This document shows, one piece after another, positions 29,798 through 33,339 of a stretch of 33,339 nt of DNA. Positions within the stretch are counted from its first letter, which is position 1. Each line of letters opens with the position of its first letter. Both the position numbers and the translations under genes were made by a program. This DNA is from Cytophagaceae bacterium (lineage in GTDB: Bacteria; Bacteroidota; Bacteroidia; Cytophagales; Flexibacteraceae). The notes beneath the pieces are model-generated. The model searched no databases and was not told the DNA's origin. It was given only the letters and a program-made list of their open reading frames with translations. The DNA is taken from assembly GCA_027487695.1 (NCBI GenBank), contig JAIYDB010000118.1, positions 1-33,339 of the forward strand, in the 5' to 3' direction.

Positions 29798-31402
29798 TTA
29801 TTTGTTGTGGTGCAGATAGGCATTTTCATTGTCCATTACTTCTGCATCGGCTTTGTTATTGAGGTATATTAACCCAATAATTAAACTAACAATTGCAATA
29901 CCCATAGGATAGTACAAACCTGCTAACGGGTTTCCAGAAGGATTTTCTGGTGTTTTGGTGTACTCAATAATGAGTGTTGAAATAAACGGTACCAAGCCTC
30001 CGAACACCCCATTACCAATATGATAAGGTAATGACATTGAGGTATATCTGATCTTGATTGGGAACATTTCCACCAAGAATGCTGCAATAGGTCCATAAAC
30101 CATCGTTACGTAAATAATCTGGATGAACACTAAGAAAATAAGCATATTATTATCTGAGTTGCCCATCACCTTTTCAACCTTGGTAACTGGCTTTATGGCT
30201 CTTGCACCTGAACTATAAAGGGTATCGGTTTTAACTTCTTTCATTACCATACCATCTTCAAAAGTTTTGATGGTGGTAGTCTTTTCAATTTGATTAGCAG
30301 AACCCTCAATAGCTTTCAAATCTGTTGCAACTGAACGCTTGCCTTCTACTTCTACCTTATTGGCTGGGTTAGTAATGGCCAACACTTCTGTATAGATAGG
30401 ACGTACTGTTAAAATACTTAAAGCCATACCGCCTAGCATAATCCACTTTCTACCAATCTGGTCACTCAACCAACCGAATATCACAAAGAATGGTGTAGCG
30501 AAGGCAATTGCCCATAACATAATAGTACGCGACTGTCCGAAATCGATCTTGGCAACAGTTTCCATAAAGTTTTGTGCATAGAACTGACCTGTGTACCATA
30601 CTACGCCTTGTCCCATTACCGCGCCAAACAAGGCTAGTAATACCATTTTCAAGTTTTCACGTTTACCAAAGCTTTCTTTCAATGGGTTGGTAGATGTTTT
30701 ACCTTCCTTCTTAAGCTTTGAGAATAAAGGCGATTCTTCCATTTTCAAACGAATATATACCGATACAATTACAAGTGCCATTGAAACAATGAACGGTATT
30801 CTCCATCCCCATTCTGTGAACTTTTCCACACCCATAATGCTACGGGTTCCAAGAATTACACCTAGTGAAAGGAATAAGCCTAAAGTTGCTGTGGTCTGTA
30901 TCCAAGAGGTATAAAATCCACGCTTCCCTACTGGCGAGTGTTCCGCTACATATGTTGCTGCACCACCATATTCACCACCTAATGCCAAACCTTGGATAAG
31001 GCGAAGGATAAGTACCAATATTGGTGCCGCTACCCCAATGGTTTTATAGCCTGGTATTAAACCAATACAGAATGTACTACCACCCATCAATAACAGGGTT
31101 AGTAAGAAGGTATATTTCCTGCCAACGATATCGCCTAACCTACCGAATACTAGCGCTCCGAATGGTCTAACAATAAAGCCTGCCGCAAATATGGCTAGGG
31201 TACTTAAAAGGGCTGCCGATGACTTATCTTCTGGGAAGAATTGGGTAGAAATAATGGTAGCCAAGCTTCCGAAAATATAGAAGTCGTACCATTCAATTAG
31301 CGTTCCTACCGATGAGGCTGTAATCACAGAACGGATTACCTTGTTGAACGAAGGCGACTGAACATCGGCTAGGTTCGGTTGTGGTTGTGTTAAATTTGCC
31401 AT
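29798..31402 (-). CDS. MFS transporter, metabolite:H+ symporter (MHS) family
   Basis: 534 residues, inner membrane, 12 TM helices. The MHS branch (KgtP, ProP, ShiA and relatives) is clear from SSVGTLIEWYDFYIFG, FGRLGDIVGRKYTFL (the MFS loop 2-3 motif), RLIQGLALGGEYGGAATYVAEHSP with helix 5 following, and WGWRIPFIVS before the central loop. Substrates in this family are organic acids or zwitterions; which applies here is unknown. About 75 charged, low-hydrophobicity residues (about 342-417) are inserted between helices 9 and 10, expected on the periplasmic side; most MHS proteins are 430-450 long. The ATG shares one base with the stop of the upstream porin-like gene (TAATG), so translation is probably coupled. 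DUF6814-like gene follows. Confidence 0.9.
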   Translation of the reverse strand: MANLTQPQPNLADVQSPSFNKVIRSVITASSVGTLIEWYDFYIFGSLATIISTQFFPEDKSSAALLSTLAIFAAGFIVRPFGALVFGRLGDIVGRKYTFLLTLLLMGGSTFCIGLIPGYKTIGVAAPILVLILRLIQGLALGGEYGGAATYVAEHSPVGKRGFYTSWIQTTATLGLFLSLGVILGTRSIMGVEKFTEWGWRIPFIVSMALVIVSVYIRLKMEESPLFSKLKKEGKTSTNPLKESFGKRENLKMVLLALFGAVMGQGVVWYTGQFYAQNFMETVAKIDFGQSRTIMLWAIAFATPFFVIFGWLSDQIGRKWIMLGGMALSILTVRPIYTEVLAITNPANKVEVEGKRSVATDLKAIEGSANQIEKTTTIKTFEDGMVMKEVKTDTLYSSGARAIKPVTKVEKVMGNSDNNMLIFLVFIQIIYVTMVYGPIAAFLVEMFPIKIRYTSMSLPYHIGNGVFGGLVPFISTLIIEYTKTPENPSGNPLAGLYYPMGIAIVSLIIGLIYLNNKADAEVMDNENAYLHHNK

Positions 31403-32439
31403 TATAAAAATACTTGGAATTGTACGGTGAATTCATTTTTGGTGCCCTTTATCACGATATCGATTTGCACTGGCGCAGCAACTCTATCAAAATAAGGGCG
31501 TTGACGGTAGTTTAGGGTAATTTTTGCATTATGACCACTTACGAAATAGTTCACTCCTAAATCAGGAATCACTACAGCATCGGCCAATCGTTCATAGTTA
31601 GCGTGAGAAACAGCTGCATACGGTTGGAATTTACCAATTTTTGTACTTGGCAATACATATCCTGCTTGTGCATATAATATGGTACCAGTACCAATAGTTG
31701 GGGTAGCATCGCCTGCGCCTGTCCAAGTTCTGCCTGGTCCTACGCCGTTACTTGGGTTAGAAATCCCGATGTTACGAACGTAGTTTTTACCCATATCATA
31801 AAACTGTGCAGCTCCGTAAAAAGTAAGGGCAGTACCTTTTTCCTTGTTTAGTGGTAAATCTAAAAATACATCGGCCGCTAACATGGTCTGGGCTACTCGT
31901 TGAGTATCTACCCTGCCGGTGGTGGCATTTTTCTGGGCGGTCCACATCATATCTGGAGTATGTGCCCAGCCTGCCCCTATGTTAAATACCTTTTTAGTTC
32001 CTATATAAGTGCCTTGTGTGAAGGGTAATACATTGCTTTCAATATCCCAAAACTGATATTGGAAATAACCAGTAGTCATTAACTTCTGCGGGCCAAGACC
32101 TCTGTATGCGCTAGATTCTTTGCCATTAAAAGCTTGCACGGTATCTAAAGCGGTTAAGGCATTGGTGCGCTGCATAGCAAATGGAGTATTTACTGCCACA
32201 CGGTAATCTAAACGCTTGTTATTTAGTAATTTACCTTTTGCATAAATACCAAAGTAACGGGCGAACTGGTCGGTAGCTTCAATATTATACCAGTTGTGAA
32301 TAGGAGCATCAATAGTCATAAAAGTTAAAGTACTTGCATTAGTCATTCGGGTAGGACCGTTCCAATAATGCAATCCCGCGCCTATATCTAGGTAATGCTT
32401 ATATGCTTTGTATTCAGCCCAAGCATCGTGCAGGAACAA
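31402..32439 (-). CDS. C-terminal barrel portion of the interrupted porin
   Basis: 345 codons open from a TTG at 32437-32439 to the TAA that overlaps the transporter start. As a separate protein it would lack a signal peptide and could not reach the outer membrane, which argues that it belongs to the same gene as the upstream 116-codon piece. Strands are rich in alternating aromatic and small residues and the last residues are FQVFL. Confidence 0.5.
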   Translation of the reverse strand: MFLHDAWAEYKAYKHYLDIGAGLHYWNGPTRMTNASTLTFMTIDAPIHNWYNIEATDQFARYFGIYAKGKLLNNKRLDYRVAVNTPFAMQRTNALTALDTVQAFNGKESSAYRGLGPQKLMTTGYFQYQFWDIESNVLPFTQGTYIGTKKVFNIGAGWAHTPDMMWTAQKNATTGRVDTQRVAQTMLAADVFLDLPLNKEKGTALTFYGAAQFYDMGKNYVRNIGISNPSNGVGPGRTWTGAGDATPTIGTGTILYAQAGYVLPSTKIGKFQPYAAVSHANYERLADAVVIPDLGVNYFVSGHNAKITLNYRQRPYFDRVAAPVQIDIVIKGTKNEFTVQFQVFL

Positions 32440-32472
32440 CTGAGGCTTTTTACCATCAGTACCACTAGCACC

Positions 32473-32475
32473 TTA
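32473..32475 (-). other. In-frame TAA at codon 117 of the porin-like gene
   Basis: Codons around it read GGT AAT GGT TAA GGT GCT AGT GGT. A one-base change from AAA, CAA, GAA or TCA would give it. There is no net frameshift. Confidence 0.85.
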
Positions 32476-32823
32476 ACCATTACCGCCGCCACTTACAAGG
32501 GTTTGGTTATTGATACCGAAGTGAGAAAGAATGAGGAACCTCGGACTTAACTGCACTAAGAACAACATACGTGACCTACGCATAGCCATATCATATTGGC
32601 TATTAGTCATTTCGCCATTCACCATACTGCCTGGATTGTTTTCAGCGTATCTGGCCCATACTTGGTGCCAAGTAATAATACGCAGATACTTTTTTCCGCT
32701 GGTATCTAGGTTTACCCTAATACCTTGCCCATAGCTTGGCTCAATTTGCTGAGCTTGTAGGTTTATTGTACTGCCTAAGTGCAGCAGTAAAACAACCAAA
32801 AAAGTAAGTAGCTTTTTATTCAT
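32473..32823 (-). CDS. N-terminal portion of the interrupted porin (signal peptide plus first strands)
   Basis: 116 codons beginning KKLLTFLVVLLLHLGSTINLQAQ, a clear signal peptide, followed by YLRIITWHQVWARY and MAMRRSRMLFLVQLSPRFLILSHFGINNQ, the first strands of a barrel. It ends at a TAA in a glycine-rich run and continues in the same frame beyond it. Promoter elements and a palindrome lie 55-86 bases upstream. Confidence 0.55.
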   Translation of the reverse strand: MNKKLLTFLVVLLLHLGSTINLQAQQIEPSYGQGIRVNLDTSGKKYLRIITWHQVWARYAENNPGSMVNGEMTNSQYDMAMRRSRMLFLVQLSPRFLILSHFGINNQTLVSGGGNG

Positions 32824-32833
32824 CTATCTTTGG

Positions 32834-32839
32834 AAGGTT
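32834..32839. promoter_or_regulatory. Extra AAGGTT half-site in the porin leader
   Basis: Same hexamer as one arm of the palindrome at 32880-32892, 46 bases away, just before the porin ATG. A hexamer can recur by chance. Confidence 0.25.
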
Positions 32840-32877
32840 TATTTGGTGTGTGTACCCGTCCTGTTCAGAACTTGATT

Positions 32878-32909
32878 CAAAGGTTCAACCTTCCTAAGCA
32901 GATGCCAAA
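32878..32909 (-). promoter_or_regulatory. Promoter of the porin-MHS-DUF6814 operon
   Basis: On the minus strand TTTG (32906-32909) and AACCTTTG (32878-32885) are 20 bases apart, matching TTTG/TAnnTTTG with one mismatch. Transcription should begin near 32871, giving a leader of nearly 50 bases. Confidence 0.6.
32880..32892. promoter_or_regulatory. 13-bp palindrome AAGGTT-C-AACCTT overlapping the promoter -7 box
   Basis: Perfect six-base arms around a single central base, lying over the -7 element of the porin operon, a position suited to a repressor operator. The neighbouring zinc-ribbon/HTH protein gene is the obvious candidate for the binding protein, which is inference only. Confidence 0.45.
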
Positions 32910-32962
32910 AAATGAATACATACCTGTAAAATAGATATAGTTTATAGTAAAATTTATCCTAT

Positions 32963-33339
32963 CTACTGCTTAAATCGCTCCCATTTAATAAGCATAAACT
33001 TATCGCCAAGTTCAGTGATTACACTACCCGAACCCTTCAAATTTTCTTTATTAGACATATAATTGACTAATTCCGTATGGTTCAAGATTTTATAGGTTGG
33101 GTGATAATCTCGCTTTTCAGGTCGCTTTAAACCATACTGCTTTACCCAGTTCATTACCGATACGTGGCTAATTCCGAGTAGCCTTTCTATCTCTCTGGAA
33201 CTTAAGCCCTCTATATATAACTGTAAAGCCTTGGTTACATAGTAGCTATCTATCTGCTTACCAATCTTATCGACAGTGAAATAATAGGTACAACTTTTAC
33301 ATTTAAAACGCTGCCTATCAGATACTATACCGCTCTTTA
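32963..33339 (-). CDS. Transposase-derived zinc-ribbon/HTH protein without DDE domain (5' partial)
   Basis: The frame stays open from the window edge to a TAG at 32963-32965, giving 124 C-terminal residues; the start lies beyond 33339. It begins inside a zinc ribbon, with the second cysteine pair visible (SDRQRFKCKSCTYYF), as in the IS1 InsA/IS1595 N-terminal region. A helix-turn-helix follows (LYIEGLSSREIERLLGISHVSVMNWVKQYGLKRP). Instead of a DDE nuclease it ends with a short domain (YKILNHTELVNYMSNKENLK ... SVITELGDKFMLIKWERFKQ) and no more. I recall similar full-length small proteins in other Bacteroidota, which suggests a domesticated DNA-binding regulator rather than a broken IS. It is co-oriented with, and 139 bases upstream of, the porin gene. 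Confidence 0.75.
   Translation of the reverse strand, partial: KSGIVSDRQRFKCKSCTYYFTVDKIGKQIDSYYVTKALQLYIEGLSSREIERLLGISHVSVMNWVKQYGLKRPEKRDYHPTYKILNHTELVNYMSNKENLKGSGSVITELGDKFMLIKWERFKQ

Follow-up and report, generated by a model that had tools for sequence, protein, structure and literature searches.

A single in-frame TAA in a predicted porin gene of a Cytophagaceae draft genome, probably a recent nonsense mutation

A predicted outer-membrane porin gene is split by a single in-frame TAA in the window (the whole stretch of DNA analysed, which is the complete contig C25 of 33,339 bases), which is part of a draft assembly of 2.887 Mb and 129 contigs that is 96.4% complete with 1.7% contamination. 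The TAA probably reflects a recent nonsense mutation, in which a single base change turned a glutamine codon into a stop and abolished the porin. Comparison with relatives suggests that the stop stands in place of a sense codon one base change away and that constraint on the sequence after it has not yet relaxed. An earlier note on this DNA had named three options, a very recent nonsense mutation, a consensus error and stop read-through. The first is favoured here, given glutamine in all seven nearest homologues and the absence of downstream decay; consensus error is likewise compatible with the data, and read-through found no positive support.

The divided porin frame

Translation of the minus strand yields one frame (32823..31402) of 116 residues, TAA, 356 residues and a terminal stop, which confirms the earlier description of two segments in the same frame separated by one stop. 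The internal TAA lies at 32475..32473 (minus strand; feature 32473..32475), within the translated context SGGGNG*GASGTDG, and is followed by G; its aligned position is glutamine in the seven nearest homologues found. The 5' part of the gene (116 codons; 32476..32823, minus strand) has an N-terminus that, judged by eye, resembles a signal peptide and aligns with the first three of 16 barrel strands. The remainder (356 codons and the terminal TAA; 31402..32472, minus strand) is undecayed and aligns with the other 13. Besides the internal TAA, the frame at 31402-32823 holds no further stop before its terminal TAA, and it aligns unbroken across the stop with the intact homologues L032 and L033 (tblastn; query residues 1-473, 61% identity), so that the 116- and 356-codon halves can be taken as one gene, free of other lesions as had been claimed. 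On this alignment, the sharing of a single frame by two halves of one homologous protein is far beyond chance. The source genome contains one porin match.

Both halves are uninterrupted, and they could in principle be translated separately to form a functional two-piece porin. However, the second half has no ATG in its first 42 codons, its first candidate re-initiation codon being a TTG at 32439, 11 codons past the stop, and by eye no signal peptide is present at its start. For these reasons, it is not expected to arrive at the outer membrane; even with re-initiation, the 356 codons would not give an exported barrel because they lack a signal peptide of their own. In addition, the porin is unsplit in all 49 homologous loci. 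A two-piece porin is thus highly improbable.

Predicted fold and position of the stop

Pfam gave no match for either porin half or for two intact homologues, and a PDB sequence search with the porin returned nothing at E values up to 1. The NCBIfam profile for porin ExtI (NF040900) matched weakly, at 52.7 bits for the downstream part of the window's porin, 44.9 bits for L032 and 43.4 bits for L034; these scores are far under the cut-off of 150, and membership of this family was rejected. The fold was predicted from homologue L032, rather than from the window's own split protein. The AlphaFold2 model of L032 (pLDDT 78.3, pTM 0.79) is predicted to adopt the 16-stranded porin fold, with 16 barrel strands when residues 372-388 are counted by us as one strand and 33-36 and 347-350 are left out. 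By VIA-align, it superimposes on OmpK35 (5o77; Z 24.0, 304 residues, 3.0 A), OprP (2o4v; Z 23.0, 306 residues, 2.9 A) and OprO (Z 23.0), values that are to be read as tied, at about 10% sequence identity to these 16-stranded porins.

The stop corresponds to residue 115 of L032, as mapped by us from the alignment. It falls within a low-confidence segment of the model (residues 109-123), between strands 94-106 and 127-139. Since the preceding turn is short, this loop is probably the second extracellular loop. The length of the stop-bearing segment differs greatly among homologues in the alignment of the fetched loci, in keeping, together with the low model confidence, with the earlier placement of the stop in a variable loop.

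Comparison with related loci

Homologous porins were compared across 49 fetched non-self loci (L003-L051), comprising 20 loci on named contigs and 29 among the best matches of a genome search in which 68 of 118 genomes matched. None of them carries an in-frame stop in the porin frame. At the stop column, the 49 loci show T (15), gap (11), Q (7), G (6), A (5), S (2), E (2) and V (1), in an alignment that is loose at this column for distant members. In each of the seven nearest (L032-L038), the column holds a glutamine codon that a single transition would turn into TAA; aligning orthologues at the stop, as the earlier note had proposed, gave glutamine in every close relative and a stop in none of the 49 loci.

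A wider search with the L032 porin, covering 390 genomes of the same order, found matches in 249. Among the 150 matches listed, some of which start only around residue 112-117 and so barely include the stop site, two contain an internal stop: the window itself and a porin from genome G306, both read directly and both internal. The G306 porin, a more distant homologue (34-36% identical to L032), has a single in-frame TAA at L109 1309-1311 (contig C29, about 42,308). This stop lies 25 residues further along L032 than that of the window, in a different alignment column, and internal porin stops therefore seem to be sporadic and independent, with no conserved site suggested by these sequences. At the genus level, the sole genome searched was the window's own, and the TAA is seen in one draft genome. 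When the transporter was used to gauge the background frequency of stops, many rows were flagged where the alignment runs near or past the gene end, terminal stops seemingly being counted, and this comparison was set aside; in a separate search, flagged row G059 proved on direct reading to have no internal stop in the matched stretch.

Constraint before and after the stop

Constraint was assessed at invariant columns, defined as those constant among the seven nearest homologues. Of these, the window retains 44 of 51 on the 5' side of the stop and 128 of 138 on the 3' side. In four leave-one-out controls, the counts were 44/50, 44/45, 44/45 and 44/46 before the stop and 129/147, 128/133, 128/139 and 128/147 after it. 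By this measure, nothing sets the window apart after the stop, and if it has changed slightly more than its relatives anywhere, it is on the 5' side. The lower retention before the stop than in three of the four controls (44/45, 44/45 and 44/46) is a feature that a nonsense mutation leaves unexplained. Of the neighbouring genes' products, the transporter retains 283/311 invariant columns and the upstream protein 71/73. Trees of 13 taxa computed with iqtree placed the window on a branch of 0.241 for the downstream part (L032/L033 stem 0.398), 0.328 for the upstream part (stem 0.219) and 0.270 for the transporter (stem 0.124). Neither the invariant columns nor the tree branches give any sign of relaxed constraint after the stop. 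The NG86 synonymous distance for the porin comparisons is 1.8-3.8 or undefined, and dN/dS is not usable.

The lack of decay is consistent with a change so recent that the downstream part would show no visible drift, in line with the very recent nonsense mutation that the earlier note had put forward. A consensus error would leave the downstream part equally undecayed. The TAA may be absent from the dominant genome, having entered the draft assembly as a consensus error or as a base from a minority strain, and such an error accounts for the data nearly as well as a nonsense mutation; we consider it possible, well short of probable. The source is a draft of 129 contigs with the completeness and contamination given above, the absence of downstream decay is exactly as an error predicts, and the neighbouring genes are uninterrupted. 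A coarse scan of 291,327 further bases, about a tenth of the genome, with seven candidate pairs outside the window examined, confirmed no second split gene, which speaks mildly against a generally poor consensus. If instead the TAA arose by nonsense mutation, it could be a strain variant inside the sampled population.

Genetic code, tRNAs and read-through

The use of TAA as a terminator was surveyed in a sample of 324,666 bases, made up of the window and 19 other stretches. This gave 123 stop-to-stop frames spanning at least 300 codons; 91 end in TAA, 29 in TAG and 3 in TGA. Same-frame neighbours were drawn from the 25 best-scoring pairs, seven of which, all outside the window, were examined. 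In five, the two sides are separated by TAA and match different Pfam families (in one of these, L095, the left match is under its cut-off), and the other two lie opposite long frames on the complementary strand, of 2339 and 1812 codons. At least 35 Rfam tRNA matches were found in the genome (150 of 235 first-look candidates scored), 34 of which were typed by ARAGORN. No UAA-reading anticodon (UUA) occurs among the 34 typed tRNAs of this genome, which is 96% complete, so that a tRNA could be missing from it. A tRNA-Gln with anticodon UUG is present.

Reassignment of TAA to glutamine in the source organism would agree with glutamine being the aligned residue in the nearest relatives. It is opposed by the standing of TAA as the commonest terminator (91/123), by the five TAA-separated pairs with different families on each side, and by the failure to find a tRNA with anticodon UUA, and is vanishingly unlikely: TAA still ends genes, as the earlier note had argued in stating that the code is not reassigned, and a cognate tRNA was not found among the 34 typed. 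A suppressor tRNA was also rejected, with no UUA in the typed tRNAs or in the likely anticodon loop of the 35th. This 35th match, at C96:1057-1168 (L087, minus strand), is tRNA-like and has an extended variable region. It scores 31.2 bits with the Rfam tRNA model in one search, is not called by ARAGORN or cmscan, has by eye no UUA in its likely anticodon loop, and is possibly a degenerate tRNA.

Programmed or leaky read-through would have UAA decoded, perhaps by near-cognate tRNA-Gln, yielding full-length porin in small amounts. The loop that holds the stop is variable and of low model confidence, and many residues should be tolerated in it. Misreading of UAA by tRNA-Gln, which PMC5289835 cites for E. 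coli, would insert the ancestral residue, and the tRNA-Gln (UUG) is at hand. However, a stop conserved among homologues, as expected for programmed read-through, was not found: no stop occurs at this site in the 49 loci, and the sole other internal stop among the 150 matches listed, that of G306, is at a different column. UAA is described in the same paper as the least leaky stop, in agreement with the earlier note, and U after the stop is described there as the strongest context. The G found here is not special, as G also follows TAA at 20 of the 91 long-frame ends in the sample, and none of the 34 typed tRNAs has a UAA-reading anticodon. Recoding is therefore very unlikely, and trace-level read-through is possible without positive support. 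A related scenario is that a real but leaky TAA, misread by tRNA-Gln in a tolerant loop, keeps trace porin while largely closing an entry route, for example against phage; it is likewise very improbable. If true, it would mean a dimmer set by point mutation instead of an on/off switch.

Neighbouring genes and phase variation

Directly downstream of the porin lies an uninterrupted gene for a major facilitator transporter (29798..31402, minus strand), whose product comes closest to the metabolite/H+ symporter subfamily, at 364 bits where the cut-off is 443. Its ATG overlaps the terminal TAA of the porin, forming TAATG at window positions 31400-31404. In 11 of 12 related loci, selected for holding all three genes, the first in-frame ATG of the transporter is 20-38 nt past the porin stop; the twelfth (L040) has an apparent overlap, possibly from a mis-chosen start. 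The TAATG coupling that the earlier note considered preserved is thus present in the window and was unseen in 11 of these 12 relatives, and in this comparison the overlap seems not to be of long standing.

Upstream, a gene for a zinc-ribbon/helix-turn-helix protein (32963..33337, minus strand) is cut by the contig end. Its product resembles the N-terminal part of IS1 transposase, scoring 63 bits with the IS1 profile against a cut-off of 100, and has one match in the source genome. It belongs with the module, as 30 of 49 porin loci, among them the seven nearest, carry a homologue upstream in the same orientation, at a gap of 89-155 bp to the porin (12 loci measured). Insertion of an upstream IS element was rejected on the same distribution, and the protein looks, by its sequence and distribution, like a domesticated, possibly regulatory, factor rather than a mobile element. 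The transporter was found in 23 of the 49 loci, many of which hold little flanking DNA, and all three genes occur together in the seven nearest.

The earlier note had linked a nonsense mutation to a phase-off state of the uptake module. No tandem repeats occur in 31300-33339 (the contig ends at 33339), which contains two short direct-repeat families, and the gene was not classed as phase-variable, no repeat tract or switching element being present in this region. A 14-nt inverted pair (31319-31332 and 33010-33023; 93% complementary) brackets the porin with arms 1677 nt apart. It is probably a chance occurrence, and its flipping would neither create nor remove the TAA. The suggestion of a phase-off state was accordingly not borne out.

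Consequences and comparison with known systems

In the favoured reading, a recent nonsense mutation, a glutamine codon in a porin loop would have become TAA by a single base change. Translation would end after three of 16 strands, short of the C-terminal strand required for barrel assembly, and therefore no porin would be made. The transporter, with its start overlapping the porin end, may also be translated less through polarity. If the change is real and recent, an environmental bacterium has lost one outer-membrane entry route. Loss of such routes is known under selection by phage or toxic compounds. The case also has calibration value: from sequence alone, one in-frame stop flanked by conserved coding sequence mimics recoding, whereas the relatives indicate an ordinary nonsense change in one step, or an error.

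Nonsense loss-of-function alleles of porin genes are a known kind. The present case resembles them in that a single stop interrupts a porin frame with no other lesion, and differs in coming from one draft genome alone. The predicted fold of L032 is like that of the 16-stranded general and specific porins (OmpK35/OmpF/OmpC and OprP/OprO); their low identity to it sets them apart, and the common fold carries no information on substrate. The ExtI porin of selenite and tellurite reduction operons is matched weakly by the downstream part and by two intact homologues, yet all three scores stay below the family cut-off. The closest counterparts are the intact porins of Bacteroidota metagenome-assembled genomes (L032-L038), which share full-length homology and, in all seven, the upstream zinc-ribbon/helix-turn-helix gene and the downstream transporter. 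They differ in the porin-transporter gap of 20-38 nt, where the window has an overlap, and in encoding glutamine where the window has TAA.
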